Shown here in pieces: positions 6,275 through 24,671 of a DNA stretch of 64,000 nucleotides (position 1 is its first letter; each line of letters opens with the position of its first letter). Under the pieces are notes generated by a model that did not search any database, was not told where the DNA came from, and worked only from the letters and a program-made list of their open reading frames with translations. The position numbers and the translations under genes were made by a program. Source of the DNA: Aeromicrobium fastidiosum (lineage in GTDB: Bacteria > Actinomycetota > Actinomycetes > Propionibacteriales > Nocardioidaceae); the NCBI RefSeq assembly GCF_017876595.1, contig NZ_JAGIOG010000001.1:1302001-1366000 (forward strand), read 5' to 3'.

Positions 6275-6355
6275 ATGCGTTTTGCCGACGACGTCCGGAC
6301 GGACCTGTCGAGAACGTGGGCGTCTGCAGCGCCGCGCCGGGAGCGGACGTCATGA
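6275..6355 (+). CDS. Possible 26-residue leader ORF overlapping the reductase start
   Basis: The ATG at 6275 follows GAGGAG (6265-6270). It opens a 26-codon frame (MRFADDVRTDLSRTW...) whose TGA overlaps the next gene's ATG as ATGA. The RBS and exact coupling suggest that translation through this small frame may feed the reductase gene. It matches no family I know, and its R- and S-rich tail is typical of chance high-GC reading. It could be a leader peptide or an untranslated leader. Confidence 0.35.
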   Translation: MRFADDVRTDLSRTWASAAPRRERTS

Positions 6356-7611
6356 GCGCCGGGCCCCATGTCGCGATCATCGGCAGCGGTCCCGCCGGCT
6401 GCTACACCGCTCAGGCGCTGCGCAAGGACTGGCCGGACGCCGAGATCACGGTCATCGATCGACTTCCGGTCCCGTACGGGCTGATCCGCTACGGTGTCGC
6501 GGCCGACCACCAAGGTACGAAGGCCGTCACCAAGCAGTTCGATCGTCTCTTCGAGCGTGCCGGGGTGACGTTCTCCGGCGGCGTCGAGGTCGGCCTCGAC
6601 GTGACGCTCGAACAGCTGGCGGACCAGCATGACGCCGTCGTGCTGGCCACCGGGTGCGACCGCGACCGCGAGCTGGCCATCGCCGGATCCGATCTCCCCG
6701 AGGTGTACCCATCGGGCCCCCTGACGGCCTTGCTCAACGGGCATCCGGACTCCTCGACCCTCGTTCCGCGGCTCGGCGAGAACGTCGTGGTCGTCGGCAA
6801 CGGGAACGTGGCGGTCGATGTCGTGCGTCTGCTCGCGAAGCACCCGGACGACTTCGCCGGGTCGGACCTGCCCCTCGCGATCCATGACCTGGTGCATCGT
6901 CCGGGCGTCCTGGAGGTGACGGTGGTGGGGCGCGGGCCGGCTGAGACGTCACGGTTCGACGCGACGATGATCAAGGAGCTCGGGCAGCTCGAGGGTGTGC
7001 GTTTCGTCGTCGAGGACGTCAACGCCGATCGCGAGTCCGAGGTTCCGCAGATCGCGGCGCTGGCCCATCTGCTCGAGCACCAGGTGGGAGGCGACCGGGT
7101 CCAGGTCACGTTCCGGTTCGGGTGGCAACCTGAGTCGATCGGCGGCGACTCGCACGTCGAGGCGATCTCCTTCATCTCTCCGGACGGCCGCGTCCTGCGC
7201 CTGCCGACGGACAGCGTCGTCTCGGCGATCGGCTTCGACGCCTCGGCCCCGCTCGTCAGGGACGCCGGCGGAGACCTCACGACCGACGGGCGGCTCGCAC
7301 CGGGGCTCTACTGCGTCGGCTGGGCGCGGACCGGGCCACGCGGAGCGATCCCCGACGCCCGCGCCGACGCGCGGCTCGTGGCTAGCGCGATCACGGCCGA
7401 TCTTCGCGCCGCCCCGTGCAAAGGCGAGCACGACCCCGCTGCCCTGCGAGCGACGTGGCCCGCGGTCGACTTCGCCGCGTGGCAGCGCATCGACGACCAC
7501 GAGCGCGCGACGGCGAGCTCGGGTCGCGTTCGCAACAAGATCCTCGACCACGCCGAGCTCCGGCGGGTCGCCGCGACCACCAGCCTCACCTCCGAAGGGG
7601 AACAGCCATGA
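6352..7611 (+). CDS. FprA-type NADPH-ferredoxin/flavodoxin reductase
   Basis: A 419-residue FAD enzyme of the adrenodoxin-reductase/FprA family, which passes electrons from NADPH to ferredoxin or flavodoxin. The FAD motif IIGSGPAGCYTAQAL is at about residues 9-23, followed by PVPYGLIRYGVAADH. The NADPH domain has VVVGNGNVAVDVVRLL at about 146-161, and GWARTGPRGAIPDARADA near residue 325 is the C-terminal family signature. The ATG at 6352 matches the family N-terminus; an upstream in-frame ATG at 6232 would add an unrelated 40 residues. The stop overlaps the flavodoxin ATG (ATGA). The operon order makes it the electron donor for the P450 encoded two genes downstream. Confidence 0.92.
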   Translation: MSAGPHVAIIGSGPAGCYTAQALRKDWPDAEITVIDRLPVPYGLIRYGVAADHQGTKAVTKQFDRLFERAGVTFSGGVEVGLDVTLEQLADQHDAVVLATGCDRDRELAIAGSDLPEVYPSGPLTALLNGHPDSSTLVPRLGENVVVVGNGNVAVDVVRLLAKHPDDFAGSDLPLAIHDLVHRPGVLEVTVVGRGPAETSRFDATMIKELGQLEGVRFVVEDVNADRESEVPQIAALAHLLEHQVGGDRVQVTFRFGWQPESIGGDSHVEAISFISPDGRVLRLPTDSVVSAIGFDASAPLVRDAGGDLTTDGRLAPGLYCVGWARTGPRGAIPDARADARLVASAITADLRAAPCKGEHDPAALRATWPAVDFAAWQRIDDHERATASSGRVRNKILDHAELRRVAATTSLTSEGEQP

Positions 7612-8054
7612 GCATCACGATCCTGTACGGCACTGAGTCAGGCAATGCCGAGATGGCAGCCGACGAGTGCGCCGAGACACTGCCCGACGCCGTCGCCGTC
7701 GACCTGATGGACCTCGAGCCGGCCGACCTCGACCTCGGCGACACCTTCCTGATCGTCTGCTCGACCTACGGGGACGGTGAGCTGCCGGCATCCGCACAGC
7801 CGTTCGTCGACCGCCTCGTGGACCAGAAGCCCGACCTGAGCGAGATGCGATACGCGATCTTCGGCCTGGGCGACAGCGGTTACGCCGAGTCGTACGGGCT
7901 CGGCGGCACGCGTCTGGCCGAGCAGCTCGACGCCCTGGGCGCTCAGCGCTTCGGGGACTTCGGACGCCACGACGCCGCCGGCAGCGACGACCTGGTCGAG
8001 ACGGTCCTTGCCTGGGCCGAGTCCACGGTGGCTGCCGCCACCTCAGCCGCCTGA
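7608..8054 (+). CDS. Flavodoxin (redox partner of the P450)
   Basis: A 148-residue short-chain flavodoxin that should shuttle single electrons from the FprA-type reductase to the P450. The FMN phosphate loop LYGTESGNAEMAADE is at about residues 5-19. Isoalloxazine-binding segments CSTYGDGELPASAQPF (about 47-62) and FGLGDSGYAESYGLGG (about 84-99) follow. There is no signal peptide and no reductase fusion. The start overlaps the reductase stop; the P450 starts 17 bp after this stop. A flavodoxin instead of a ferredoxin as P450 donor is uncommon; the known example is cindoxin serving P450cin. Confidence 0.93.
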   Translation: MSITILYGTESGNAEMAADECAETLPDAVAVDLMDLEPADLDLGDTFLIVCSTYGDGELPASAQPFVDRLVDQKPDLSEMRYAIFGLGDSGYAESYGLGGTRLAEQLDALGAQRFGDFGRHDAAGSDDLVETVLAWAESTVAAATSAA

Positions 8055-8070
8055 GAGAGCGAGACACACC

Positions 8071-9258
8071 ATGACGATCGACACCACCATCACCGCAGGC
8101 GACCCGCTGCCGTTCCTGACGGACGAATACCGCACGGATCCGTACCCGTTCTACGCGGCGCTCCGTGCCGGGCAGCCGGTGTTCCAGCACCCTGCCGGGT
8201 TCTGGGCGATCACAGGCTATGCCGAGCTGAGCGAGCTGCTGTACAACCGCACGCTCGGCGTCGCCGACCTCGACTACGGTCCTGCGACCCCGCTCCACGA
8301 CAGCATGCTCGGGGCCGACGCTCCCAAGCACACGCGCGTGCGCCGGACCCACAGCCGGTGGTTCACCCCGAAGGCCGTGCAGCAGTGGTCGGAGTTCGCG
8401 CGTGGCGAGATCGCGACCCGACTGGACGCCATCGTGGCGTCAGGGGGCACCTTCGACGCCGTGCACGACCTGGCCTTTCCCGTCACCTTCGCCACGATCA
8501 GCAAGCTGCTCGGAGTACCGGCAGAGGACGGTGAAGAGGTCAGGCAGGCCACGCACGACATCGGTCGGAGCCTCGGGCTGGACCCCACCGCCGAGGAGGC
8601 GGCCGGCACCGAGAAGGCGTTCGCGTGGTTCATCGCCTACAACGAGCGGCTCGTCGCGGCCAAGCGGGCCGACCCCGGCGACGGCCTGCTCGACAGCTTC
8701 CTCGCCTTCGAGGACGACGGCACGATGTCGCACGACGAGGTCATCGCCTCCCTCACCCTGCTGTTCGCGGTGGGGCACCTCGACATCACCTACCTGATCG
8801 TCCACGGCATCAAGCTGATGATCGAGCAGCCGGCGATCTTCGCCACGTACCGGGACGAGCCCGATCGTCGGGCCGACATCGTGAACGAGATCCTGCGGAT
8901 CGACACGCCTGAGCAGTTCGTCGCTCGGATGACGACCCAGCCGATCACGGTCGGCGGCGTCGACATCCCAGCCGGCGAACCTCTCATCTTGTTCATCGGG
9001 GCAGGTAACCACGACCCCGCCGTCTTCGCTGATCCAGAGACGTTCGACATCGACCGCGACGCCGACCTCAGCAAGCACCTGGCATTCGGCGCGGGACCGC
9101 ACGGATGTGCCGGCCAGGTGCTGGCACGTGCGGAGGCGCACGACGTCTTCAGCGCACTCGTCGAGCGGTTCGATCGGATCGAGCTCGCCGGGCCGGTCAC
9201 CTACGGCCACTCGGAGTTCATCCGCTCCATCTCGTCCCTTCCCGTCTCGGTCTCCTGA
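8071..9258 (+). CDS. Cytochrome P450, probable demethylase of this operon
   Basis: A 395-residue soluble class I P450. The ExxR motif is E273-I-L-R276 and the heme loop is AFGAGPHGCAG with the thiolate ligand at C346. The I-helix is atypical: residues 231-240 read LFAVGHLDIT, where most P450s have (A/G)G-x-(D/E)-T-T, so the acid-alcohol pair used for O2 activation is replaced by Leu-Asp. P450s lacking this pair are known (P450cin, GcoA), often oxidising ethers or methoxy groups. Downstream folate genes imply that the reaction releases a one-carbon unit, that is, O- or N-demethylation; this is inference. The true start is the ATG at 8071; longer frames overlap the flavodoxin gene. Confidence 0.93.
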   Translation: MTIDTTITAGDPLPFLTDEYRTDPYPFYAALRAGQPVFQHPAGFWAITGYAELSELLYNRTLGVADLDYGPATPLHDSMLGADAPKHTRVRRTHSRWFTPKAVQQWSEFARGEIATRLDAIVASGGTFDAVHDLAFPVTFATISKLLGVPAEDGEEVRQATHDIGRSLGLDPTAEEAAGTEKAFAWFIAYNERLVAAKRADPGDGLLDSFLAFEDDGTMSHDEVIASLTLLFAVGHLDITYLIVHGIKLMIEQPAIFATYRDEPDRRADIVNEILRIDTPEQFVARMTTQPITVGGVDIPAGEPLILFIGAGNHDPAVFADPETFDIDRDADLSKHLAFGAGPHGCAGQVLARAEAHDVFSALVERFDRIELAGPVTYGHSEFIRSISSLPVSVS

Positions 9259-9310
9259 GCGATCCCGCAGACCCCACGACCACCCCGTACCCACTGAAAC
9301 GGAGCACGAC

Positions 9311-10435
9311 ATGACCGCACCATCCGACGCCACCACCGACCTGCGTCCGACCCCGTTCGCCGCACGGTTCCCCGAGACGGCGGGCGAAGCCATCGACGTC
9401 TACGGATTCGCCGTCCCGCTGTTCCTGGTCGACGTGGACGAGGAGTACGACGCCATCCGCCATCGCGTCGCGGTGCTCGAGTTCTCGATGCTGTTCAAGT
9501 GGGACGTCCGCGGCGCAGACGCCGTGGCCGTCGCCGACGCGGTGTTCTCTCGCAACCTGCGCGACCTGGCTGCGCGTCGCATCGCCTACGGGGTCGTGGT
9601 CGACGAGTCGGGCCACATGCTCGACGACGTCACCGGGACGGTGCTGGCCGACGACCACGTCCGCATCATCGGCGGCAACCCCGCGACGGTGGACGCCCTG
9701 CGGCGTCACGCCGAGGGGCGCGACGCCGAGGTCACCGAGATCCGCGACACCCTCGGGGTGCTGAGCGTGCAGGGCCCTCGCAGCCGCGAGCTCCTCCAGC
9801 GTCTGACCGACCGGGACATGTCGAACGAGGCGTTCCCCTACTACTCCTACGACCCCGCCATGACGGTCGCCGGCATCCCCGCCCACGTCAACCGCATGGG
9901 CTTCACCGCGGAGCTCGGCTACGAGGTCATGGTGCCGGTGGAGCGTGCCCTCGAGCTGTGGGACGCACTGTTCGAGGCCGGCCAGGACCTCGGAGTGCAG
10001 GCGGCGTCCGCGGGTGCGCTGATGGTCGCGCGCGTCGAGGCCGGGATGGTCATGGGCGAGGTCGAGTACGACGCCACGAGCACTCCGTTCGAGTGCCGGA
10101 TGGGCTGGGCGGTCGACTTCGACAAGGGCGACTTCCAGGGCCGCGAAGCTCTTCTGTCGCTCAAGGATGGGGTGAGCGCCCGCGTGGTGTCGGTCGTGGT
10201 GGATGCCGATCCGGACGCCGCCGACGGCGCGCGCCTGGTGGATGCCGGCGAGGACGTCGGCTGGGTCACGATGGCGGTGCCGTCGCCGGTCCTGGACGGC
10301 AAGACGCTCGGACTGGCGCGGGTCGCAGTCGGCTCGGCCAAGATCGGCACCACGCTGGCCTTGGCCGACGGAGCCGTGGCCACCGTGGTGCGCACGCCCG
10401 TCTACGACCCCGACCGCGACCGCGTCCGAAGCTGA
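9311..10435 (+). CDS. GcvT-like tetrahydrofolate aminomethyltransferase/demethylase
   Basis: A 374-residue member of the GcvT/DmgO/LigM-type folate family. It probably transfers a methyl or formaldehyde-level carbon to tetrahydrofolate. The sequence follows the GcvT pattern: [19 protein letters not shown] (about 95-113), [19 protein letters not shown] (about 148-166) and [15 protein letters not shown] (about 196-210). A C-terminal barrel with [23 protein letters not shown] follows. It is not next to GcvH or GcvP, so it does not belong to a glycine cleavage complex. Position between the P450 and PurU/FolD suggests it captures the carbon the P450 removes. The ATG at 9311 follows CGGAGC at proper spacing. 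Confidence 0.85.
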
Positions 10436-10449
10436 GAAGGAACCACGCC

Positions 10450-11295
10450 GTGAACAGATATGTCATGACCCTTCGATGCCCGGACCAGCCGGGCATCGTC
10501 CGTGCCTTCGCGCAGGGTGTGTCGTCCCTCAAGGGCAACATCGTCGACAACAACCAGTTCTCCGACCCGGACACCGACACGTTCTGCATGCGCACCGAGT
10601 TCGACTCTCCGGCGGACAGCTCGGCGGTCGTCCGCGCGGAGCTGACCCAGGCGCTGGGTGCGTTCGACCCGTTCCTGACGGTGCGAGACGTCTCGCACCG
10701 TCGCCGCGTGCTGCTGATGGTCTCCAAGTTCGACCACTGCCTGGTCGACCTGCTCTATCGTCACCGCACGGGCGACCTGCCGATCGACATCCCGGTGATC
10801 GTGTCCAACCACCCCGATCTCAAGCCCCTGGCCGATCAGGCCGGCATTCCCTTCGTCCTGATCCCCGTCACGAAGGACACCAAGCCGGAGGCGGAGGCGA
10901 AGCTGCTCGACCTGGTGACCGAGCACGACGTCGACCTCGTCGTGCTGGCGCGGTACATGCAGGTGCTGTCGGACGACCTGTGTCGCAAGCTCGCCGGACG
11001 CGCGATCAACATCCACCACTCGTTCCTCCCCGGTTTCAAGGGTGCGAAGCCCTACCACCAGGCGCATGCGCGAGGGGTCAAGCTCATCGGGGCCACCGCC
11101 CATTACGTCACGGCCGAGCTCGACGAGGGCCCGATCATCGAGCAGGACGTCCAGCGCGTGAACCATGCACGCAGCGCCGACCAGATGGTGGCACTGGGCC
11201 GGGACGTCGAGCGTGCCGTGCTCTCGCGCGCGGTCCGTCGCCATGCCGAGGACCGTGTGATCCTGGTGGGCGCACGCACGGTGGTCTTCGAGTGA
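10450..11295 (+). CDS. purU: Formyltetrahydrofolate deformylase
   Basis: A 281-residue PurU that hydrolyses 10-formyl-THF to formate and free THF. An N-terminal ACT-like domain ([20 protein letters not shown], about 6-25) precedes the formyltransferase domain. That domain has [31 protein letters not shown] (about 184-203) and [13 protein letters not shown] with the catalytic Asp. It starts at GTG 10450 after AAGGA. The stop overlaps the folD GTG by 4 bp. PurU-FolD pairs accompany sarcosine and dimethylglycine demethylation genes in Arthrobacter, which supports a role in recycling THF during demethylation. Confidence 0.95.
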
Positions 11296-12140
11296 GCGCC
11301 CGCATCCTCGACGGCACCGCCACGGCCAAGGCCATCAAGAACGAGCTGTCGGCCAGGGTGAGTGGCCTCCGGAGCAAGGGCGTGCGAGTGGGCCTCGGCA
11401 CGATCCTCGTCGGCGATGATCCGGGGTCGGCCTGGTACGTCGCGGGCAAGCACCGTGATTGCGCCGAGGTGGGCATCGAGTCGATTCGGATCGACCTGCC
11501 GGGCGATGCTCCGCAGAGTGCTGTCGAAGAAGCCGTGCTCCGGCTCAACGAGGACCCGTCGTGCACCGGCTACATCGTGCAGCTGCCCCTGCCGCCCCAC
11601 ATGGACGAGAACCACATCTTGGGTCTCATCGACCCGGCCAAGGATGCCGACGGCCTGCACCCGACCAATCTCGGCTGGTTGGTGCTCGGCAAGGATGCGC
11701 CGTTGCCCTGCACGCCCACGGGAATCGTGGAGCTGTTGAGACGTCACGACGTCGAGCTCGCCGGGGCCGAGGTGGTCGTCGTCGGTCGGGGGATCACGGT
11801 CGGTCGCCCACTGGGGTTGCTGTTGACCCGCCGGGCCGAGAACGCCACCGTCACGCTCTGCCACACCGGCACCAGGGACCTGGGCGCCCATACCCGTGAG
11901 GCTGACATCATCGTCGCGGCCGCAGGCGTTCCCGACATCATCACGGCCGACATGGTGAAGCCCGGAGCCGCCGTGATCGACGTAGGGGTCTCGCGCGACG
12001 CTGAAGGCAAGATCGCTGGCGACGTGGCGCTGGACGTCCGAGACGTCGCGGCATGGGTCTCCCCGAATCCAGGGGGTGTGGGGCCCATGACCCGTGCTCA
12101 GCTCCTGGCCAACGTCGTCGCGGCGGCGGAGCACCGGTAG
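11292..12140 (+). CDS. folD: Methylene-THF dehydrogenase/methenyl-THF cyclohydrolase
   Basis: A 282-residue bifunctional FolD that oxidises 5,10-methylene-THF to 10-formyl-THF, the substrate of PurU. Seen: [17 protein letters not shown] with the catalytic Lys (about residues 49-65), [31 protein letters not shown] and [10 protein letters not shown]. One departure: the NADP-loop motif GRSxxVGxP reads GRGITVGRP, with Gly at 167 instead of Ser. It starts at GTG 11292 inside the purU stop and is the last gene before a strong terminator. A house-keeping folD copy probably exists elsewhere. Confidence 0.95.
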
Positions 12141-12153
12141 GCCATCGGGCCCG

Positions 12154-16380: not shown

Positions 16381-17244
16381 ATGACCACCATCCGTGAGAC
16401 ACGCCGCATCCTGCTCGACGGCAACCCCGTCGACGTCGTCCGCCAGGGCGAGACCCTCGTCGCCGGGGACGGCCGCACGGTCGCGATCGCCGACGCGCAC
16501 CACCTCCCGCCCGTCACGCCGTCCAAGATCATCTGCGTCCACCTGAACTACATCAGCCGGGTCAAGGAGATGCAGACGACGCTGCCTCCGGCACCGACGT
16601 ACTTCCACAAGCCGGTCTCGGCGCTCAACTCGCACGACGCGGCGGTCGTGCGTCCCGACGGGTGCAGCTGGCTCAACTACGAGGGCGAGATCGCCATCGT
16701 CATCGGACGCACCGCGCGCAACATCTCGCCTGCCGAGGCCGGTGACTACATCCGCGGGTTCACGGTCGCCAACGACTACGGCCTCCACGACTTCCGTGAC
16801 ACCGACTCGGGGTCGATGCTGCGCGTCAAGGGTGCGGACACGTTGTGCCCCGTCGGACCCGGTGTGGTCGAGGGCTGGGACTTCCGCGGCAAGCAGATTC
16901 GGACGCTCGTCAACGGCGAGGTGCGCCAGGACGGCAACACCGACGAGATGGAGTGGGACATGCACTACCTCGTCGCCGACATCGCGCGGACCATCACGCT
17001 GCAGCCCGGCGACCTGCTGCTGTCGGGCACGCCGGCCATCTCCCGAACGGTGTACCCCGGCGACGTCGTCGAGGTCGAGGTCGAAGGACTCGGCACGCTC
17101 CGCAATCACATCGTGACGGGGCCGACGCCGATCCGCACCGACGTCGGCGCGCAGGTCACCGAGTCCGAGGAGGTCCTCTCGACTGCCCAAGGCGGCGACT
17201 GGGAGTTCCGCGGCATCCGCAAGCCGCAGCCCGCGGCACACTGA
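16381..17244 (+). CDS. Fumarylacetoacetate-hydrolase-family enzyme (HpaG-like)
   Basis: A 287-residue FAH-family protein. The family metal-binding triad is seen as YEGEIAIVIGR (Glu-x-Glu, about residues 100-110) with the downstream Asp in GFTVANDYGLHDFRD. GDLLLSGTPA near residue 217 is the other hallmark. In the homoprotocatechuate pathway, HpaG decarboxylates and isomerises the HpaE product. In E. coli two FAH domains are fused; here there is only one, so it may do one of the two steps. It starts at ATG 16381 after AAAGGA. Confidence 0.85.
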   Translation: MTTIRETRRILLDGNPVDVVRQGETLVAGDGRTVAIADAHHLPPVTPSKIICVHLNYISRVKEMQTTLPPAPTYFHKPVSALNSHDAAVVRPDGCSWLNYEGEIAIVIGRTARNISPAEAGDYIRGFTVANDYGLHDFRDTDSGSMLRVKGADTLCPVGPGVVEGWDFRGKQIRTLVNGEVRQDGNTDEMEWDMHYLVADIARTITLQPGDLLLSGTPAISRTVYPGDVVEVEVEGLGTLRNHIVTGPTPIRTDVGAQVTESEEVLSTAQGGDWEFRGIRKPQPAAH

Positions 17245-17263: not shown

Positions 17264-18763
17264 ATGACTGTCACCGACATCGTCACGACCACTGACTGGG
17301 TGCGCCGAGCCAAGGACATGGTCGTCCCGGCCGGCATCTTCGTCGACGGCGAGATGCGCGCCGCCGCCGGCACGCGCGCGATTCGCACGCCGCGGGACGG
17401 GAGCGTCATCGGAGAGCTCGCCTGGGCGGGGGAGGGCGACGTGGACGTCGCTGTCGCGGCCGCGCGTCGAGCGTTCGACCATGGTCCATGGCCGCGCATG
17501 CACCCGCGAGAGCGCGGAGAGATCCTGCAGGCGTTCTCCGCACTCGTGCACGAGCACCGCGACGAGCTCGCACTGCTGGTGAGCCTGGAGATGGGCAAGC
17601 CGATCCGTGCCGCTCACGACATCGAGCTGCGTGCCCTGGTCAGGACCCTGCGCTACTACGGCGAGATCGCCGACAAGGAGCATGGCGAGGTCACGCCGAC
17701 GACCGACGGCGAGCTCTCGCTCGTCACTCGCGAGCCGTCCGGGGTGGTCGCGTCCGTCGTCAGCTGGAACTTTCCTCTGACCCTCGCAGGATGGAAGTTC
17801 GCCCCGGCCCTGGCCGCCGGTTGCGCGGTCGTGCTGAAGACCGCCGAGCAGTCGCCTCTGTCGATGCAGCGGGTGGCTGAGCTCGGGGCGCAGGCGGGCC
17901 TGCCGCCGGGCGTCCTGAACGTCCTGAGCGGCGACGGAGTCGTCGTGGGCCGGGCTCTGGGACTGCACCGCGACGTCGACGTGCTGACGTTCACGGGATC
18001 GACCGCCGTCGGGCGACACTTCCTGCGGTACTCGGCCGACTCCAACCTCAAGCGCGTCCAGCTCGAGCTCGGTGGCAAGTCGCCCAACATCATCTTCCCG
18101 GACGCACCGGATCTGGACGCGGCTGCCGACACCGCAGCCTGGGCGATCTTCTTCAACAGCGGCGAGATGTGCACCGCGGGGTCTCGTCTCGTCGTGCACC
18201 GCGATGTGGCGGACCAGGTGGTCGACCGGATCGTCCGGACCAGCGCGTCGTGGGCACCAGGGGACCCTCTGGATCCCACGACGACGATGGGGCCGCTGGT
18301 CGACCAGTCGGCGCTCGATCGCGTCCTCGGCCAGCTCGAGGAGGGCATCGCAGCGGGTGGACGCGTGCTCACCGGCGGCCGGCAGGCGCGGCCGGACAGT
18401 GGTGGGCCCTACCTCGAGCCGACCGTGGTGACGGGTCTTGGTCGTGACAACCTGCTCGTCCGCGAAGAGCTCTTCGCCCCGGTGCTGTCGGTGCTGGAGG
18501 TGGCCGACGAGGACGAGGCCGTCGCGGTGGCCGGTGACACTCCCTACGGTCTCGCGGCTGCGGTGTGGACCTCGGACCTGGGCACTGCCCACCGGGTGGC
18601 CAAGCGTCTCAAGGCCGGGACCGTGTGGGTCAACTGCTACGAGGAGGGTGACCTGAGCGTCCCGTTCGGGGGGGTGAAGCTGTCGGGCTTCGGACGCGAC
18701 AAGTCGCGACACGCCCTCGACGAGTACACCGACCTCAAGACGACGTGGATCGCCCATGGGTGA
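17264..18763 (+). CDS. PuuC-like gamma-glutamyl-aminoaldehyde dehydrogenase
   Basis: A 499-residue aldehyde dehydrogenase with VVSWNFPLTLAGWK, ELGGKSPNIIF and catalytic C303 in FFNSGEMCTAGSR. The C-terminus VPFGGVKLSGFGRDKSRHALDEYTDLKTTWI closely follows PuuC, which oxidises gamma-glutamyl-gamma-aminobutyraldehyde. Co-location with a PuuD-like amidase and a gamma-glutamylamine ligase in the same probable regulon supports oxidation of a gamma-glutamylated aldehyde. It could instead act on a free arylacetaldehyde. Its stop overlaps the puuD-like ATG by 8 bp. Confidence 0.85.
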   Translation: MTVTDIVTTTDWVRRAKDMVVPAGIFVDGEMRAAAGTRAIRTPRDGSVIGELAWAGEGDVDVAVAAARRAFDHGPWPRMHPRERGEILQAFSALVHEHRDELALLVSLEMGKPIRAAHDIELRALVRTLRYYGEIADKEHGEVTPTTDGELSLVTREPSGVVASVVSWNFPLTLAGWKFAPALAAGCAVVLKTAEQSPLSMQRVAELGAQAGLPPGVLNVLSGDGVVVGRALGLHRDVDVLTFTGSTAVGRHFLRYSADSNLKRVQLELGGKSPNIIFPDAPDLDAAADTAAWAIFFNSGEMCTAGSRLVVHRDVADQVVDRIVRTSASWAPGDPLDPTTTMGPLVDQSALDRVLGQLEEGIAAGGRVLTGGRQARPDSGGPYLEPTVVTGLGRDNLLVREELFAPVLSVLEVADEDEAVAVAGDTPYGLAAAVWTSDLGTAHRVAKRLKAGTVWVNCYEEGDLSVPFGGVKLSGFGRDKSRHALDEYTDLKTTWIAHG

Positions 18764-19511
18764 GCACTCGTCGTCGCCCCGCCCGCGCATCGTCATCCCG
18801 GCGCGATTCTCGGAGGGTGCGACGGCCCTGCGCTACGCGGCGGAGGTGACCTCCCGCAAGCTCGTCGAGGCGGTCTGGGCCGCTGGCGGCGAACCTCTGG
18901 TGATGCACCCCAGCGCGCCCGGGGCGATCGTCGACGACGCGGACGTCCTCGGGCGGCTCGCGGTAGCCGACGGCGTGCTCCTTCCGGGAGGCGGCGACCT
19001 GTCCTCGCGGTGGACGGGCCAGGAGCATCACGACACGCTGTACGACGTCGACGAGGAGCAGGACGCCTTCGACCTGGCGTTGGCACGAGTGTGCCTGACC
19101 ACCGGTTTGCCGCTGCTGGCCGTGTGCAGGGGGCTCCAGGTGGTCAACGCGCTCCGGGGCGGGCGCATCGTGCAGGACATGGACGAGGAGCTGGGCGAGG
19201 AGCGCCACCACCGTCACCGCGTGCACGACGTCTCCGTCGCCTCGGGCTCGACCCTCCACGGCATCGTTGGCCAGGGTGTGCGAGCGTCCTGCTACCACCA
19301 CCAGTGCATCGCGTCGACCGGAGAGGGGCTCCGTCCGGTCGCGTGGTCCGAGGACGGTGTGGTCGAGGCCGTCGAGACCGACGGCCCCGGCTGGTTCGTC
19401 GGAGTCCAATGGCATCCCGAAGACACCTGGGAGACCGAGTCGCAGCAACGGGCACTGTTCGTCGCCCTCGTGCAGGCCAGCGCGGGCCGGCTCTCGTCAG
19501 TCGAGCTCTGA
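18756..19511 (+). CDS. PuuD-like gamma-glutamyl amide hydrolase (class I GATase fold)
   Basis: A 251-residue class I glutamine-amidotransferase-fold hydrolase. The nucleophile is C124 in LLAVCRGLQVVN and the His-Glu pair is H220 and E222 in VQWHPEDTW; DGVLLPGGGDL (about 69-79) forms the oxyanion region. PuuD releases glutamate from gamma-glutamyl-GABA. Here it would release glutamate from the product of the upstream dehydrogenase. The HHHRHRVHDVSV stretch also follows PuuD. It is the last gene of the operon; the 3' end overlaps the convergent marR gene by 15 bp. Confidence 0.88.
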   Translation: MGEHSSSPRPRIVIPARFSEGATALRYAAEVTSRKLVEAVWAAGGEPLVMHPSAPGAIVDDADVLGRLAVADGVLLPGGGDLSSRWTGQEHHDTLYDVDEEQDAFDLALARVCLTTGLPLLAVCRGLQVVNALRGGRIVQDMDEELGEERHHRHRVHDVSVASGSTLHGIVGQGVRASCYHHQCIASTGEGLRPVAWSEDGVVEAVETDGPGWFVGVQWHPEDTWETESQQRALFVALVQASAGRLSSVEL

Positions 19512-19994
19512 GGTCTCGACGAGCGTGCGCAGGGCCTGTGTCATGGCGTCGACCTGCGCCGCGTCGAGACCGCCGACGAGATCGGACTCGGCCCGGTTGA
19601 ACTCCGGGTATATGCGGTCCATCAGGGCGAGACCGTCAGAACTGAGCCGCAGGTTCACCAGACGTCGGTCGACCGTGCTGGGAATCCGCTCGATGAGGTT
19701 GCGCGCCGACAAGGTCTTGGCGACACCGGTCAGAGTGCCCTTGCTGATGCCGACCGAGTCGGCGATGTCCCGGGTCTCCATCGAGTCCCAGATCCACAAC
19801 GTCCACAGCACCAGGAATCCGGTCCAGGTCAGGTCGTTCGGTCGAAGCACCTTGGTCGTCAGATTGCTCCTGACGGCGTTGGCCGCTCGGTACAGGCTGA
19901 GCAGGGCGTGCGATGCGCCGTAGTCGAGCGGGAGGTGCTTGACGCGCTGTCGGGTCGCCTGCTCAGTCTCTTCGAGTGAGTGGTGGTCGGGCAT
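19497..19994 (-). CDS. MarR-family transcriptional regulator
   Basis: A 165-residue winged-helix regulator of the usual MarR length. The helix-turn-helix is around residues 75-98 (TRDIADSVGISKGTLTGVAKTLSARNLI) and the wing is RIPSTVDRRLVNLRLSSDG (about 99-117). It is convergent with the puuD-like gene and sits in the middle of the amine/aromatic region. That makes it the best candidate for binding the CGTTYGG-NN-CCRAACG palindromes nearby. No such site is visible before its own start, so it may not be autoregulated. The effector is unknown. Confidence 0.9.
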   Translation of the reverse strand: MPDHHSLEETEQATRQRVKHLPLDYGASHALLSLYRAANAVRSNLTTKVLRPNDLTWTGFLVLWTLWIWDSMETRDIADSVGISKGTLTGVAKTLSARNLIERIPSTVDRRLVNLRLSSDGLALMDRIYPEFNRAESDLVGGLDAAQVDAMTQALRTLVETSELD

Positions 19995-20029: not shown

Positions 20030-20827
20030 TCAGGACGTGATCTTCGCCAAGGTGGTGCCGCCGTCCCACTGCACGCCGACCTGCCGGTAGTAGCCGCCGA
20101 TCATCTCGTCGACCGTCAGGTCGGCCAGCTCCTCGGTGGGTGCGTCGAACAGTCGCAGCTCGGCGTCGCCGGTCCACGTCTGTCCGCCCTCTGCTGCCTT
20201 GGCGCCGGTCGCGATCAGCTCGGAGTAGGCGTCCCCGGTGCCGGCGATGTCGGGGAGCACCCGGTGGTGCGCCATGGGGTGACCGTTGACGAAGCCGTTG
20301 GTGGCCGCTGGCTCCTTGAGCGTCACGACCGCCTCGGCGAGCCTGCGATCCGATGCCGACAACGTGGCGCCGAACATGCCGCCCGCGGCGATCTGCGGCG
20401 CGGCTTGGGCGAACGGGTGAGGGCGTGTCTGCCACATCGACCCGAGCTTCTTCGGGTAGCCCTGGTGCAGGCCGCGGCCGATCGCGAAGTCCTTGTCGAC
20501 CCAGATGAAGACGCAGCGCGAGTAGGTGACTCCCTGGAAGGAGCACCGCACGACCACGAAGGCCTCCTTGTACTGGGAGCGGACAGGGTCGAGCAGCTCG
20601 GCTCGGTCGGTCGAGCACGACTGCCAGTCGGCCCAGATGAACGCGACAGCGCCTGGGTCGTCGGGAGCAAGCTCGAGCGGAGCCGGCAGCAGGGCCTTGA
20701 CCCGCGCCGGGTCCGTCCGGTACTCGACGGTGAGCAGGTCGCCGGAGTAGAACCACGGCGGCGAGGGGATCAGCGAGGATGCGCCGGACTGCGTCCGTGG
20801 GTAGAGGAAGCCCTGCATGTCCGTCAT
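20030..20827 (-). CDS. Acetoacetate-decarboxylase-family enzyme
   Basis: A 265-residue ADC-family (PF06314-type) protein. The conserved GYPKKLG (K126 and K127) corresponds to the Schiff-base lysine region of clostridial acetoacetate decarboxylase. YRTDPARVKALLPAPLEL at the N-terminus and a WQT-type loop also fit. Family members catalyse decarboxylation, hydration/dehydration or aldol chemistry on oxo acids. It is transcribed divergently from the gamma-glutamylamine ligase, and both promoters carry identical operators, so it should belong to the same pathway. It might replace a missing step after ring cleavage; that is inference. The start is ATG 20827. Confidence 0.85.
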   Translation of the reverse strand: MTDMQGFLYPRTQSGASSLIPSPPWFYSGDLLTVEYRTDPARVKALLPAPLELAPDDPGAVAFIWADWQSCSTDRAELLDPVRSQYKEAFVVVRCSFQGVTYSRCVFIWVDKDFAIGRGLHQGYPKKLGSMWQTRPHPFAQAAPQIAAGGMFGATLSASDRRLAEAVVTLKEPAATNGFVNGHPMAHHRVLPDIAGTGDAYSELIATGAKAAEGGQTWTGDAELRLFDAPTEELADLTVDEMIGGYYRQVGVQWDGGTTLAKITS

Positions 20828-20841
20828 GTTCACTCCTGGAT

Positions 20842-20859
20842 TCGTTTGGCTCCGAACGA
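20842..20859. promoter_or_regulatory. Operator TCGTTTGG-CT-CCGAACGA (decarboxylase promoter)
   Basis: The 18-bp near-palindrome (7 of 8 arm positions paired) lies 14 bp before the decarboxylase ATG. The same 22-bp sequence occurs in inverted orientation at 20912-20933 for the divergent gene. Confidence 0.65.
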
Positions 20860-20913
20860 TACCGCGCGCCCGGGATCTTGAAAAGCCCTTGTGCTGGGGA
20901 CTCCACTCGATTA

Positions 20914-20931
20914 TCGTTCGGAGCCAAACGA
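20914..20931. promoter_or_regulatory. Operator TCGTTCGG-AG-CCAAACGA (ligase promoter)
   Basis: Exact reverse complement of the site at 20842-20859, ending 16 bp before the GTG start of the glutamine-synthetase-like gene. Each divergent gene therefore has its own operator at the same distance from its start codon. Confidence 0.65.
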
Positions 20932-20947
20932 ATTGGAAGGACGCCCC

Positions 20948-22297
20948 GTGCACCCTGACCTCGCAGGCCTCGAACAGGCTCAGCGCCAGCTCGAGGAACA
21001 AGGCATCGACGTCGTGCGTGTCGGCTATGCCGACCTGATCGGGGCCGACCGAGGACGCGACGTCCTGGTCAGCCACTTCGGGCGGACCGTCGGCGGCGGC
21101 CTGGCGTTCTGTCGCTCGGTGTTCGCGACGACGCCCGGTGGAGAGGTCGTCGACTTCGAGGGCGGCATGTCGGACGGCCTCCCGGACGTCAAGGTGGTCC
21201 CCGACCTGTCGACGCTGCGGCCCGTCCCGTGGGAGCCCGGCGTCGCACACTGCATCGCTGACGTGTTCGACCCCGACGGCACGCCCTCGGCCGAAGGGCC
21301 ACGCCACGTCCTCCGCCAGCTCCTCGCCGAGTTCGCCGCGCTGGGGCTGTCGCCGATCATCGGTCCCGAGCTCGAGTTCTTCGTGCTCGAGAAGAGCGAC
21401 AAGACCGCCACGGGGTGGCACCGGTACGGCGAGGCCACCGGCAACGTCTACACCGCGGGCCTCAAGGGCGACCCCGACAGCATCACGCTCGAGACGCTGC
21501 GCACGTTGGGCGACTACGGGCTGGACGTCATCTCGGCCAACCACGAGTTCTCGTCCGGTCAGTTCGAGATCAACCTGTGGCACGGCGAGGCGCTGGACGC
21601 CGCCGACCGGGCCCACCGCTTCAAGACGGCGATCAAGGAGCTCGCGCACCGGCGCGGGCAGCTCGCGACCTTCATGCCCAAGCCGTTCAACGACGAGGGC
21701 GGGTCGGGGTATCACCTCCACTTCTCGATGCTCGACGACCAGGGCAATGCCCTGTTCGACGACCCCTCCGCCCCTCACGGCCTCTCGACCATGGCGCAGC
21801 ACGCCATCGGCGGGATCCTGGCCCACGCGCCTGCTGCCGCGGCCCTGTCGAACCCCACGATCAACTCGTACAAGCGCTTCGGGCCCGACACCCTCGCGCC
21901 CTGGCTCATCGACTGGGGGCTCGACAACCGCAGCGCGATGCTGCGCATCCCGCCCGAGCGGGGTGCTGCGTCGCGGATCGAGCTGAGGCTCGGCGATGCC
22001 AGCGCCAACTCGTACCTCGTGATCGCGGCGATGCTCGCGGCGGCCCTCCTGGGCATCCGCAACGAGATCGAGCCACCGGAGCCGTTGGTGGGCTACGGCT
22101 ACGACGTCGCCAAGGCCGCCCAGCTGCCCAGCACGCTCGCCACGGCGCTCGACGCCCTGGAGGCCGATCAGGAGATGACCGCGCTGCTCGGCCCCAAGTT
22201 CGTCGCGGCCTTCCTGGCCTACAAGCGCGACGAGGTCGCCCGGTTCCAGCGGTGGACCACCGACTGGGAGTTCGCCGAGTACGCCTACCACATCTGA
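20948..22297 (+). CDS. Glutamine-synthetase-like gamma-glutamylamine ligase (PuuA/IpuC type)
   Basis: A 449-residue GS-family protein. GPELEFFVLEK (about 139-149), HEFSSGQFEINL, GGSGYHLHFSM, INSYKRFGPDTLAPW and RIELRLGDASANSYL follow the GS fold. The catalytic GSGMHCHQS motif of true glutamine synthetases reads GSGYHLHFS, as in PuuA/GlnA3-type enzymes that couple glutamate to amines with ATP. It probably activates an imported amine as its gamma-glutamyl derivative. The GTG at 20948 follows GGAAGG. It is co-operonic with the P450 46 bp downstream and divergent from the decarboxylase. Confidence 0.88.
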   Translation: MHPDLAGLEQAQRQLEEQGIDVVRVGYADLIGADRGRDVLVSHFGRTVGGGLAFCRSVFATTPGGEVVDFEGGMSDGLPDVKVVPDLSTLRPVPWEPGVAHCIADVFDPDGTPSAEGPRHVLRQLLAEFAALGLSPIIGPELEFFVLEKSDKTATGWHRYGEATGNVYTAGLKGDPDSITLETLRTLGDYGLDVISANHEFSSGQFEINLWHGEALDAADRAHRFKTAIKELAHRRGQLATFMPKPFNDEGGSGYHLHFSMLDDQGNALFDDPSAPHGLSTMAQHAIGGILAHAPAAAALSNPTINSYKRFGPDTLAPWLIDWGLDNRSAMLRIPPERGAASRIELRLGDASANSYLVIAAMLAAALLGIRNEIEPPEPLVGYGYDVAKAAQLPSTLATALDALEADQEMTALLGPKFVAAFLAYKRDEVARFQRWTTDWEFAEYAYHI

Positions 22298-22343
22298 TCT
22301 GCACGACCGCCGAACGAGCACCGCACGACGAGAGGACACCCCC

Positions 22344-23624
22344 ATGCCCCGATACGAGCCCGTACCGCTCGAGGACGTCGACCTGTCCGACATCGACGGC
22401 TTCTCCGATCTGCGCGGATTCGCCCAGTTCGACACGCTGCGCGCCGAGGACCCGGTCCACTGGACCGAGGAGGCGGACGGTGCCGGCTTCTGGGCCGTCA
22501 CACGGTACGAGGACATCTGGTCGGTGGACAAGGACGCCGAGTCGTTCACGTCCGCGGCCTTCGTCGGCCTCGAGGACGTCGACGACGATCTGCGGGACTT
22601 CCGCCGATCGATGCTGGAGATGGACGGGGCGCGGCACCACGCCCTTCGCAAGCTCGTCCAGCGCGAGCTGTCGCCGCGCAACCTGATGAAGAACTACGAG
22701 GGGTTCCTGCGCGAGCTGACGCGCGACACGGTCGAGAGGGCGCTTGCCGAGGCAGCCGACAACGACGGCGTCATCGACTTCGTCGCCTCGATCAGTGCGG
22801 ACTTCCCCATCCAGGTGCTGGCGCGCCTGCTGGACGTGCCGAAGGAGGACACCGCCCAGCTCATCGCCTGGGGCAACGAGATGGTCGCGAACACCGACCC
22901 CGACTACGCCACGGTGCGCGCGGACCTCGACGAGTCGGACCAGTACCGGCACCTTCCGTTCCGCTCTCCGGTCATCCAGGACGTCTGGGACTACGGCAAC
23001 GAGCTACGTGCCCGGCGAATCGGCGGCGACGGCACCGACCTCATCTCCATCCTGGCCAACCGCATGCCCGACGACCATGTCCCGCTGACGCAGCAGGACT
23101 TCAACAACTACTTCTCGCTGCTCGTGATCGCCGGCAACGAGACGACTCGCCACGCGATCAGCAACTCGATGCTCGGCCTGATCGAGCAGCCCGAGCAGCT
23201 CCAGCGACTGAAGAGCGAGCCCGAGCTGATGACAGGTGCCGTCGAGGAGCTCCTGCGGTGGGCCTCCCCGGTCTACCACTTCCGGCGCACCGCCACCCGC
23301 GATCTGGAGCTGGGGGGCAAGCAGATCGCCGAGGGCGACAAGGTCGTCATGTGGTTCGCATCAGGTAACCGCGACGACACGGTGTTCGACGATCCGTACT
23401 CGATCGACGTCACGCGCACCAACGTCGACCACATGACGTTCGGCAAGGGCAGCCCTCACCTGTGCTTGGGCAACGCTCTGGCCCGCATGGAGATCCGGCT
23501 CATGTTCGAGGAGCTGCTGCCACGGCTGGCGGACATCCAGGTCGCCGGCGACGTGAAGCGGATCCGCAGCAACTTCGTCAACGGCATCAAGAAGTTCCCG
23601 GTCCGCATCACGCCGGCCTCGTGA
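22344..23624 (+). CDS. Cytochrome P450 co-transcribed with the gamma-glutamylamine ligase
   Basis: A 426-residue soluble P450 with standard catalytic residues: I-helix A263-G-N-E-T-T268, an ELLRW ExxR helix, and FGKGSPHLCLG with the heme thiolate C374. The heme-loop spacing (FGxGxPHxC) and the length resemble actinobacterial CYP families that act on bulky or CoA-linked substrates. The gene follows the gamma-glutamyl ligase in the same operon, so it may oxidise the gamma-glutamylated amine or its ring; this is inference. The likely electron donor is the reductase encoded at 23715. The start is ATG 22344 with GAGAGGAC upstream. Confidence 0.92.
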   Translation: MPRYEPVPLEDVDLSDIDGFSDLRGFAQFDTLRAEDPVHWTEEADGAGFWAVTRYEDIWSVDKDAESFTSAAFVGLEDVDDDLRDFRRSMLEMDGARHHALRKLVQRELSPRNLMKNYEGFLRELTRDTVERALAEAADNDGVIDFVASISADFPIQVLARLLDVPKEDTAQLIAWGNEMVANTDPDYATVRADLDESDQYRHLPFRSPVIQDVWDYGNELRARRIGGDGTDLISILANRMPDDHVPLTQQDFNNYFSLLVIAGNETTRHAISNSMLGLIEQPEQLQRLKSEPELMTGAVEELLRWASPVYHFRRTATRDLELGGKQIAEGDKVVMWFASGNRDDTVFDDPYSIDVTRTNVDHMTFGKGSPHLCLGNALARMEIRLMFEELLPRLADIQVAGDVKRIRSNFVNGIKKFPVRITPAS

Positions 23625-23669
23625 TCCCGGCATGACGCGGGTGGTGGACGGCAGGGGCGCGACCAGATA

Positions 23670-23687
23670 TCGTTTGGATACAAACGA
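23670..23687. promoter_or_regulatory. Operator TCGTTTGG-AT-ACAAACGA before the reductase
   Basis: An 18-bp dyad with 7 of 8 arm positions paired, the same layout as 20842 and 20914, ending 27 bp before the chosen ATG. It places the reductase in the same regulon as the ligase/P450 operon. Confidence 0.6.
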
Positions 23688-23714
23688 AAGTGGTGAGACG
23701 AAGTGGAGCAGCTG

Positions 23715-24671
23715 ATGTCGGTGAAGGCCGTCGAGATCGAGACGGTCGCGATCGTCGCCAGTCTGGTGCAGGTCGCCCAGGACGTCGTCGAGCTGACCCT
23801 CGTGCCGGCCGACGGTGCGCAACTGCCCCCGTGGGAGCCCGGAGCGCATCTCGATGTCGTGCTCGGCGACGGACTGGTCCGTCAGTACTCCCTGTGCGGG
23901 AGTCCGTCGGTGCGCGACTCCTACACGGTCGCGGTGCTGCGTGCGCCGGACAGTCGCGGGGGATCCGAGGCCGTCCACCGGCTCGCCGAGGGCCAGCGTG
24001 TCACCATCCGCGGGCCCCGCAACCACTTCGGACTCGAGGACAGCGCGCGTTACGTGTTCATCGCGGGCGGTATCGGGATCACCCCGATCATCCCGATGAT
24101 CGAGCAGGCGGACGCCTCCGGCGCTGACTGGATCCTGCACTACGGAGGCCGGACGAGCGGGTCGATGGCCTACCGCGAGCGCCTGGCCGCGCACGGTGAT
24201 CGGGTCCGGTGCGTCCCCGGCGACGAGCGCGGTCGCATCGACCTCGAGGCGGCGCTCGACGTCGAGACCGCTGACACGCTGGTGTACTGCTGTGGCCCCG
24301 AGTCGTTGCTGGCGGCCGTCGAGGAGCGCTGTGCCGGATGGCCTGCGGGCTCCCTCCACCTCGAGAGGTTCTCGCCCCGTGAGCATGAGCTGGACGGCGA
24401 GGACTCCGCGTTCGAGGTCGTGCTCGAGCAGTCCGGGATGACCTTGACCGTCGAGCCCGGCGTCACGGTCTTCGACACGATGCGCGCCGCAGGGGTCGCG
24501 GTGCTCGGCTCCTGCCTGGAAGGCGTCTGCGGCACGTGCGAGCAGGGCGTGCTCGCCGGGGAGGTCGATCACCGTGACTCGGTGCTGGACGACGACGAGC
24601 GTGCTGCCAACGACTGCATGATGGTGTGCGTCTCCCGTGCCAGGAGCCCACGCCTCGTCCTCGACGCCTAG
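23715..24671 (+). CDS. VanB/phthalate-dioxygenase-reductase-type flavin 2Fe-2S reductase
   Basis: A 318-residue reductase with three modules: a flavin domain (RQYSLCGSPS, about residues 58-67), an NAD(P)H domain (IAGGIGITPIIPMI, about 118-131), and a C-terminal plant-type 2Fe-2S domain. The last has cysteines in CLEGVCGTC and a final CMMVC. Such enzymes usually feed Rieske oxygenases. No Rieske subunit is in the window, so the P450 just upstream (22344-23624) is its probable partner, as in fused P450RhF-type systems. The ATG at 23715 follows GGAG at 7 bp; the GTG at 23703 is a weaker alternative. Confidence 0.9.
   Translation: MSVKAVEIETVAIVASLVQVAQDVVELTLVPADGAQLPPWEPGAHLDVVLGDGLVRQYSLCGSPSVRDSYTVAVLRAPDSRGGSEAVHRLAEGQRVTIRGPRNHFGLEDSARYVFIAGGIGITPIIPMIEQADASGADWILHYGGRTSGSMAYRERLAAHGDRVRCVPGDERGRIDLEAALDVETADTLVYCCGPESLLAAVEERCAGWPAGSLHLERFSPREHELDGEDSAFEVVLEQSGMTLTVEPGVTVFDTMRAAGVAVLGSCLEGVCGTCEQGVLAGEVDHRDSVLDDDERAANDCMMVCVSRARSPRLVLDA

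Follow-up and report, generated by a model that had tools for sequence, protein, structure and literature searches.

A conserved gene cluster of Aeromicrobium fastidiosum proposed to degrade N-methylated phenethylamines masked as gamma-glutamyl amides

Results

Gene content and organization of the cluster

We analysed a 64,000-nucleotide stretch of Aeromicrobium fastidiosum (NZ_JAGIOG010000001.1, positions 1,302,001-1,366,000; genome of 3.93 Mb in one contig), hereafter the window, which carries a cluster of putative amine, ring-cleavage and one-carbon genes at window positions 6352-24671. An earlier sequence-only reading had listed two P450s with two different redox systems, a GcvT-like/PurU/FolD set, an APC permease, a ligase, PuuC- and PuuD-like enzymes and HpaE-, HpaD- and HpaG-like genes, and every one of these proved to be an intact frame in this segment. 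Two genes absent from that list were also found here, encoding a protein of the acetoacetate decarboxylase (ADC) fold and a MarR-family regulator.

The cluster opens with a plus-strand run of six genes separated by -4 to 52 bases, namely an FNR of the adrenodoxin-reductase type (6352-7611), a flavodoxin (7608-8054), a P450 (P450a, 8071-9258), a GcvT-like tetrahydrofolate (THF) protein (9311-10435), the formyl-THF deformylase PurU (10450-11295) and the methylene-THF dehydrogenase/cyclohydrolase FolD (11292-12140). An APC-family permease and proposed amine importer (12328-13776, plus strand) begins 187 bases past folD; its copies share 68% identity in a Streptomyces canus cluster and 57% in a genome of the same genus (G109), both described below. 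Another 156 bases on, genes for an HpaE-like aldehyde dehydrogenase (13933-15408), a LigB-type, HpaD_Fe-like extradiol dioxygenase (15411-16370), an HpaG-like single-domain FAH protein assigned by family models (16381-17244), a PuuC-like aldehyde dehydrogenase (17264-18763) and a PuuD-like hydrolase of the class I glutamine amidotransferase (GATase) type (18756-19511) follow on the plus strand with gaps of -8 to 19 bases. Facing this run on the minus strand are the MarR regulator (19497-19994; 51% identical to the MarR type of relatives) and the ADC-fold protein (20030-20827). A second, divergent plus-strand run with gaps of 46 and 78 bases encodes a glutamine synthetase (GS)-like gamma-glutamyl organic-amine ligase (20891-22297; family models and alignment), a second P450 that is conserved next to the ligase (P450b, 22344-23624) and a PDR-type reductase recognized by a family model (23703-24671).

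PurU and FolD passed their curated NCBIfam cut-offs (391 against 223 bits, and 468 against 401 bits with NF010789, respectively). The HpaE-, HpaD-, HpaG-, PuuC-, PuuD-, GcvT- and GS-like proteins scored below the cut-offs of their best models and are therefore treated as relatives, not as certified orthologues.

Conservation of the gene set among relatives

A genome scan with the window dioxygenase gave 116 relatives, the best 80 of which were taken as loci. Neighbourhood genes were counted at identity thresholds of our choosing, and the figures refer to the 46 loci with full flanks, the 34 of 80 with short flanks being omitted. Among these 46, the dioxygenase was accompanied by the ligase in 40, by the ADC-fold protein in 40 and by both in 36. 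HpaE-like (42), HpaG-like (40), MarR-type (35), P450b (33) and APC (19) genes were also frequent, followed by PuuD-like (20) and PuuC-like (10) genes. Gene order and strand varied between groups of relatives, so that the linkage reflects more than common descent of a single segment. The core recurs, rearranged, in records of Actinomycetota, Acidobacteriota and Pseudomonadota, and its clustering exceeds chance.

Two other gene types were seen near the core. A second class I GATase-type protein (GAT2) lies there in 17 of the 46 loci (e.g., L010, L026, L031, and L105), and at E 1e-6 a GAT2 query matched nothing in the window. An LLM-class oxidoreductase, F420-dependent according to the S. canus annotation, occurs in 12 of the 46 (e.g., L085, L026, L028, L036, and L038).

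The fullest counterpart lies on a plasmid of S. canus, a member of another family, which carries a P450, the ligase, the ADC-fold protein, HpaE/D/G, a P450a homologue, APC, PuuC, PuuD, FolD, PurU and GcvT; ferredoxins and a ferredoxin-reductase-type protein stand in place of the flavodoxin. G109 carries a trimethylamine dehydrogenase (TMADH)-like oxidoreductase, GcvT, PurU, FolD, APC, a third P450, two regulators, PuuD, PuuC, the ADC-fold protein and HpaE/D/G. Plasmid pSLUN1 of S. lunaelactis has the core and a decarboxylase-type gene, with neither P450s nor one-carbon genes in the stretch shown. Cultivated relatives that carry the core include Nocardioides sp. SLBN-35 and Pimelobacter simplex 3E. 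Within the taxonomic family of A. fastidiosum, the dioxygenase was present in 7 of 149 genomes, so that the trait appears sporadic. Taken together, the genes of the cluster very probably form one conserved pathway unit for an arylethylamine.

This gene set is apparently undescribed so far. Among titles and abstract openings of the open-licence literature we found no description of the combination, which is weak evidence of novelty, and a term look-up in the main text of the rhizoSMASH paper (PMC12462448) gave no match there.

In seven loci from metagenome-assembled genomes of Acidobacteriota and Gammaproteobacteria (L069, L071, L072, L079, and L081-L083), a sulfatase-like gene lies near the dioxygenase relative, accompanied in six of the seven by tripartite tricarboxylate transporter-like genes (both assigned by eye from the first residues of the sequences). 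These neighbours perhaps serve a version of the pathway for a sulfated substrate.

The ring-cleavage dioxygenase differs from HpaD

In the sequence-only reading, the substrate was oxidised to an arylacetate and then opened by the homoprotocatechuate pathway; the dioxygenase and its neighbours were compared with that pathway. The protein matched the LigB family (PF02900, 84 bits) and scored 134.3 bits with the HpaD model TIGR02298, short of the equivalog cut-off of 315.95. Four residues, H12, H60, H188 and E244, which we take to be putative metal (iron) and acid-base residues, are common to all six canonical controls and to >95% of the 89 family rows. The window dioxygenase is 27-32% identical to six annotated hpaD/hpcB products, which are 50-88% identical mutually, and 22 alignment columns (3 of them gaps) are conserved differently between the window type and the canonical dioxygenases; clade-specific residues of the window type include T64, F247, H249, Y250, E273 and H282. 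In a maximum-likelihood tree, long branches separate the 89 window-type rows from the canonical dioxygenases. The alignment and tree omit eight duplicate loci (L094-L097, L099, L100, L108, and L110). A Sphingobium row (39% identical; beside HpaH-/HpaI-type genes and no ligase) is an exception, joining the window side on a long, unsure branch; a Roseateles dioxygenase is placed within the canonical side.

Eight control loci of the hpaD/hpcB type were picked for variety from 42 plasmid records at <60% identity, one of them (L117) truncated at the start of its record. Seven of the eight have an annotated HpaF, HpaH or HpaI, and L121 has none of the three. As this gene table is incomplete, tblastn was also run (E 1e-5). 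The HpaE- and HpaG-like queries each matched seven of the eight control loci and the dioxygenase all eight; the ligase, ADC, PuuD, P450, GcvT, PurU, FolD and APC queries matched none of the eight.

HpaF and HpaI, whose presence in the genome was taken to mark the homoprotocatechuate pathway, were not found in the complete genome of A. fastidiosum (HpaF at E <= 0.001), and HpaH gave only a match below the cut-off, outside the window. The HpaF model was silent in 14 control genomes too and was therefore checked on three records known to carry the gene, all of which it matched. The cluster shares with the homoprotocatechuate HpaD-I pathway its HpaD/E/G-type enzymes in the same proposed order. It differs from that pathway in its separate dioxygenase clade, in giving no HpaF or HpaI match and having an ADC-fold protein in their stead, in the added ligase and amidase, and in a proposed substrate that is an amide instead of an arylacetate.

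An ADC-fold protein as candidate hydratase-aldolase

The ADC-fold protein (PF06314, 199 bits) gave its best PDB match with MppR (4jm3, 159 bits), followed by 4zbo/6eej (158) and 5upb (101), with 3bh2 (30) and 3bgt (27) far behind. Its K126 aligns with what we take to be the Schiff-base lysine of MppR. It was aligned in 66 of 66 homologues from L005-L088 without duplicates, and in 73 of 74 rows with duplicates and the window included, the remaining row being an alignment that stops short of this position. Both the nearest characterised relatives and the lysine place the protein in the aldolase/dehydratase branch of the superfamily (MppR type). According to passages of PMC7820114, MppR is an aldolase that works on pyruvate and an aldehyde; on this ground, two ADC-superfamily proteins of Saccharolobus, strongly induced on phenol, are proposed there to act as aldolase in phenol meta-cleavage. 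On the basis of this homology and precedent, we assign to the ADC-fold protein the hydration and retro-aldol steps of HpaH and HpaI; that it would replace these two enzymes is a proposal from homology.

The ligase and the Puu-like enzymes

The ligase reached 306 of the 470 bits set for type III GS and no NCBIfam cut-off. It was aligned with two GlnA-type proteins of the same genome, E. coli PuuA and the IpuC of plasmid pTC1, and two sets of alignment columns were taken as the GS Asp50' motif and the Glu flap. The ligase has a PuuA/IpuC-like insert in place of the DGS motif and Leu in place of the flap Glu; both GlnA-type proteins retain the Asp motif and the flap residue. Organic-amine ligases (GoaS) lose both the catalytic Asp50' and the flap glutamate of GS, as stated in passages of PMC11335346. 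By this comparison, the ligase shows the marks of an organic-amine ligase. The ipuC gene of pTC1 is surrounded by P450, ferredoxin, reductase and GATase-type genes, a neighbourhood that suggests, by analogy, a parallel for P450 oxidation of gamma-glutamyl amides.

The PuuC-like protein is 45% identical to E. coli PuuC and 36% to an HpaE, with PRK09847 as best model (513.7 bits, cut-off 850). The HpaE-like enzyme is 41-44% identical to two annotated HpaE and scored 500 bits with the HpaE model (cut-off 638). The best model for the PuuD-like protein was PRK11366 (62 bits, cut-off 266), and it shares 36% identity with a GATase beside ipuC on pTC1.

The types of ligase, gamma-glutamyl-aminobutyraldehyde dehydrogenase and gamma-glutamyl-GABA (4-aminobutyrate) hydrolase are those of the E. 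coli Puu pathway for putrescine, and the last two steps proposed here are identical to it. The cluster differs in lacking a PuuB oxidase, and the aldehyde would come from ring cleavage and retro-aldol cleavage, not from a second amine. A GS-like ligase, a GATase-type amidase and an oxygenase acting on the glutamylated amine are also common to GoaS-type pathways (isopropylamine ipuC, aniline AtdA, and 1-naphthylamine NpaA). In the naphthylamine pathway, according to passages of PMC11335346, a dioxygenase turns the glutamylated amine into 1,2-dihydroxynaphthalene and the ring is opened without glutamate; in the scheme proposed here, the glutamate would stay on during ring cleavage.

P450s and the one-carbon module

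Two redox systems are encoded, the adrenodoxin-reductase-like FNR and flavodoxin by P450a, and the PDR-type reductase by P450b; judging by gene position, these would be the respective partners. P450a gave its best scores with PDB 8q5j (443 bits) and XplA (277 bits), and it is 49-50% identical to a P450 of the S. canus cluster. The FNR, flavodoxin and P450a are 41%, 43% and 37% identical, respectively, to the FAD oxidoreductase and the two halves of the adjoining fused flavodoxin-P450 on pGKT2 of Gordonia KTR9. Its fused architecture, together with the match of P450a to XplA structures in the PDB, leads us to take the KTR9 protein as XplA. XplA-type P450s are known from explosive degradation. 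The FNR/flavodoxin/P450a trio looks like an unfused relative of the XplA/XplB system: its parts resemble those of that system but are encoded separately here (flavodoxin and P450a at 7608-8054 and 8071-9258), in a proposed setting of natural amine catabolism.

The GcvT-like protein scored 177.5 bits with NF001567 (cut-off 300) and is nearest to 1woo (T. maritima-type GcvT), trimethylamine N-oxide (TMAO) demethylase and domains of sarcosine oxidase (alpha). We scanned the 149 family genomes for P450a and GcvT, scoring up to 12-13 candidates per genome (up to 12 for P450a). P450a matched at E<=1e-90 in the genome of A. fastidiosum only, and the GcvT-like gene was found in two genomes, both dioxygenase-positive. 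Since the genome of A. fastidiosum was ascertained, the chance of this co-occurrence is 6/148 (approximately 0.04). Partial one-carbon sets were seen in L069 (GcvT alone) and in L012 and L036 (PurU alone).

In G109, the oxidoreductase replaces the P450 trio upstream of GcvT-PurU-FolD-APC. It carries a C-x2-C-x3-C-x11-C cluster; its best NCBIfam naming is OYE-family only, so the designation TMADH-like, based on this motif, is tentative. It is 61% identical to a protein of Gemmobacter fulvus and 59% to one of Aminobacter aminovorans (annotated in two pieces), both directly before GcvT relatives. Further relatives are a Paracoccus aminovorans protein (46%), in a stretch with electron-transfer flavoprotein genes and a distant aminomethyltransferase, and a Rhodococcus protein (47%) that has a P450 and a PDR reductase as neighbours but no GcvT within the stretch. 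The exchange of the P450 trio for a TMADH-like oxidoreductase favours N-demethylation, as does the reasoning that a GS-like ligase could use the nitrogen only once its methyl groups were gone. Hence, the one-carbon set most likely serves N-demethylation, and removal of N- rather than O-methyl groups is probable. The sequence-only reading had left methoxy and N-methyl substrates side by side; the N-methyl option gains from the G109 oxidoreductase and its GcvT neighbours. A GcvT-fold protein, accompanied here by PurU and FolD for disposal of the formaldehyde, is common to THF-dependent N-demethylation systems (TMAO demethylase, sarcosine and dimethylglycine oxidases, and loci pairing TMADH-like proteins with GcvT). 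The cluster differs from them in that the oxidant would be a three-component P450/flavodoxin/FNR system.

A VanA_C (Rieske-family) protein was observed in 12 rows (L005, L007, L008, L011, L012, L013, L014, L016, L017, L104, L106, and L109), next to the PDR gene wherever the sequence extends that far; two genomes are represented twice or nearly so, and L014 and L109 are the same gene. Judged by what we take to be the Rieske [2Fe-2S] and mononuclear iron motifs, 12 of 12 rows are without full ligand sets for either center. The protein was therefore dropped as an O-demethylase alternative to P450a, and it is possibly a metal-free pseudo-Rieske protein.

Decarboxylases and aminotransferases near the core

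Genes of the group II pyridoxal-phosphate type (aromatic-amino-acid-decarboxylase type) occur in 11 of the 84 loci L005-L088 and form two clusters; locus frames came from a crude caller, and some are spurious. Four of the 11 were searched in detail against PDB or Pfam. The L043 copy is a close relative of DOPA decarboxylase (7xin, 745 bits), and the other members of its cluster are only 27-34% identical to it. The L074 decarboxylase matches 4obu and tyrosine decarboxylase 6eei, and that of L021 scores highest with 4obu and 7xin, several non-aromatic decarboxylases scoring only a little lower. Members of the second cluster resemble tyrosine decarboxylase but fall far below the cut-off. Five of the 11 loci are without P450b (L035, L037, L040, L063, and L086, with L040 and L063 being short), a pattern that would suit a substrate entering as a catechol, for example dopamine.

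In L064, L073 and L075, the dioxygenase gene is followed by genes for a class III aminotransferase and an aldehyde dehydrogenase. In L074, such a pair lies approximately 6 kb on, together with the decarboxylase, and further ones were seen in L006 and L009. The joint occurrence of decarboxylases and aminotransferases fits a route from aromatic amino acid through amine to GABA. Candidates from elsewhere in the genome of A. fastidiosum were set aside. Its GabT (664 bits, above the cut-off) was rejected as proof of GABA formation, as it lies approximately 13 kb outside the window, and its two PF00282 decarboxylases were not used, being 27-28% identical to the cluster type and far away.

A proposed pathway through gamma-glutamyl amides

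On balance, we favour a catabolic route for N-methylated, or possibly O-methylated, phenethylamines that keeps the amine masked as a gamma-glutamyl amide during ring opening; that ring cleavage itself takes place on the amide is probable. The substrates and the order of steps are what we infer; the gene families, the conservation of the set and the conserved catalytic residues are observed. The APC permease would import an amine such as hordenine or N-methyltyramine. P450a, fed by the flavodoxin and FNR, would strip the methyl groups, and the formaldehyde would be bound to THF by the GcvT-like protein as 5,10-methylene-THF, oxidised by FolD and released as formate by PurU. The ligase would form the gamma-glutamyl amide of tyramine, which P450b and the PDR reductase would hydroxylate on the ring to the catechol gamma-glutamyl-dopamine. 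The HpaD-like dioxygenase would then cleave the 2,3 bond, the HpaE-like enzyme would oxidise the resulting semialdehyde, and the FAH protein would decarboxylate the product. The ADC-fold enzyme would hydrate the 2-oxo-3-enoate and cleave it by retro-aldol reaction through its Schiff-base lysine, giving pyruvate and gamma-glutamyl-4-aminobutanal. Finally, the PuuC-like enzyme would yield gamma-glutamyl-GABA and the PuuD-like hydrolase glutamate and GABA, so that the scheme ends in GABA, glutamate and pyruvate.

Carbon counting is consistent with this scheme. In the homoprotocatechuate route, the HpaI product, succinic semialdehyde, retains the CH2COOH side chain. With CH2COOH replaced by CH2CH2NH-Glu, the same HpaD-I steps would lead, by our reckoning, to gamma-glutamyl-4-aminobutanal, which E. 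coli PuuC is stated to use as substrate, and the PuuC- and PuuD-like genes lie directly behind the ring-cleavage genes. Masked ring cleavage, as proposed, gives nearly every core gene one step. It would also account for the linkage of ligase and dioxygenase in loci without P450b and for the presence of two kinds of aldehyde dehydrogenase, one HpaE-like and one PuuC-like.

Several observations weigh against this scheme. Tautomerisation, the HpaF step, is the sole proposed step without an assigned gene, and only a single FAH domain is encoded. The dioxygenase also resembles beta subunits of 2-aminophenol dioxygenase (45 bits). The best PDB matches of P450b are of the CYP125 type (360 bits), followed by the CYP153 and CYP124 types, which does not point to a ring hydroxylase of a small amide, and P450b at >=36% identity is lacking in 13 of the 46 full-flank loci. 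For the ligase, overall identity is non-deciding (37% to IpuC, 31% to PuuA, and 32% to both GlnA-type proteins), and its best PDB match, a glutamate-methylamine ligase (234 bits), barely outscores glutamine synthetases (up to 230 bits). The PuuD-like protein shares no more than 27% identity with E. coli PuuD, PuuC-like genes (>=45% identity) occur in just 12 of 80 loci, and neither a PuuD- nor a GAT2-type amidase is present in 20 of the 46, so that the last steps may differ or lie elsewhere. The complete one-carbon set accompanies the dioxygenase in only three loci (the window, S. canus and G109), and the Paracoccus aminomethyltransferase is just 28% identical to the GcvT-like protein. Three of the 11 decarboxylase loci (L021, L035, and L063, two on short contigs) are without the ligase. 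A generic subfamily model is best for the L074 aminotransferase, the one cluster-linked copy that was scored, which missed the GABA-transaminase cut-off (376 of 507 bits). Lastly, side-chain length is not fixed by sequence, and a benzylamine would give gamma-glutamyl-beta-alanine.

Alternative explanations

The arylacetate route of the sequence-only reading, in which P450b would oxidise the gamma-glutamyl amide at the alpha carbon, the PuuC-like enzyme would turn the arylacetaldehyde into an arylacetate and the ring would be opened as in homoprotocatechuate, draws on the presence of HpaE/D/G-like families and on the ipuC neighbourhood of pTC1. We consider it unlikely, in view of the absence of HpaF and HpaI from the matches in the genome, the sub-threshold HpaH and the separate dioxygenase clade with its differently conserved columns. 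It would leave the ADC-fold protein and PuuD without a role and, were the side chain oxidised before ring cleavage, the gamma-glutamyl ligase and amidase without an obvious one; moreover, the link between dioxygenase and ligase persists where P450b (>=36%) is missing (e.g., L037, L047-L049, and L051). A less distant variant keeps the masked route and lets P450a remove O-methyl groups, from 3-methoxytyramine or similar. P450 demethylation of aryl ethers is common, the THF set would equally take up formaldehyde from O-methyl groups, and VanA_C-family proteins lie beside the PDR gene in 12 rows, although their incomplete iron ligand sets make them poor evidence. The TMADH-like enzyme upstream of the one-carbon set in G109, with closest relatives directly before GcvT relatives, and the need to clear the nitrogen of methyl groups before ligation argue the other way, and this variant, while deserving some weight, is rather improbable.

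The same scheme might instead serve another aryl amine, either of the vanillylamine/benzylamine type, leading to gamma-glutamyl-beta-alanine, or a substituted aniline (cf. AtdA1/NpaA1). Passages of PMC11335346 report ligase family members acting on anilines and naphthylamine, and the class III aminotransferase could accept beta-alanine. Against this, arylethylamines would be the products of the decarboxylase type encoded in 11 of the 84 loci, the naphthylamine dioxygenase described in those passages yields a dihydroxylated ring from the glutamylated amine, and there would be nothing for a PuuC-type aldehyde dehydrogenase to do; such substrates seem quite unlikely. Still less probable, in our view, is that the one-carbon/P450a block (6-12 kb) and the remainder (12-25 kb) serve unrelated substrates as accidental neighbours. 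Most relatives of the core indeed are without one-carbon genes within the stretch examined, but the pair of blocks recurs in S. canus and in G109, which keeps the GcvT-PurU-FolD-APC order of the window, and both GcvT-positive family genomes are among the seven with the dioxygenase.

The sequence-only reading is partly supported. Import of a methylated phenethylamine-type substrate, P450 demethylation with folate disposal, gamma-glutamylation and extradiol cleavage stand as linked modules, backed by comparative evidence from gene-set conservation and recurring decarboxylase-type genes, with a putative mechanism. Its arylacetate steps are not borne out.

Neighbouring genes

Elsewhere in the window, positions 37079-47877 hold genes for rhamnoside utilisation (an alpha-L-rhamnosidase, a GH1 protein, a weak RhaA-like protein, a class II aldolase-SDR fusion and an FGGY kinase), with a substrate-binding protein and a permease, named by inspection, upstream. 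These genes point to a plant-associated diet.

Discussion

The cluster may represent a new type of aromatic meta-cleavage, in which the ring of a gamma-glutamylated arylethylamine is taken apart with the amide kept on, an ADC-fold hydratase-aldolase stands in for HpaH and HpaI, and the route merges with that of putrescine at gamma-glutamyl-4-aminobutanal, together with a split XplA-like P450 N-demethylase with folate disposal for hordenine-type root alkaloids, a combined claim that we put forward tentatively and regard as somewhat short of probable. If the scheme is right, bacteria could degrade tyramine, dopamine and the N-methylated forms of both without passing through the reactive arylacetaldehyde, and aromatic and polyamine catabolism would meet in a single intermediate. 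The scheme would further hint at a natural setting for XplA-type P450s. Furthermore, it would give functions to a wide family of proteins annotated as '3,4-dihydroxyphenylacetate dioxygenase', 'catechol 1,2-dioxygenase' and 'acetoacetate decarboxylase', with members in metagenome-assembled genomes of Acidimicrobiales, Acidobacteria and Gammaproteobacteria.

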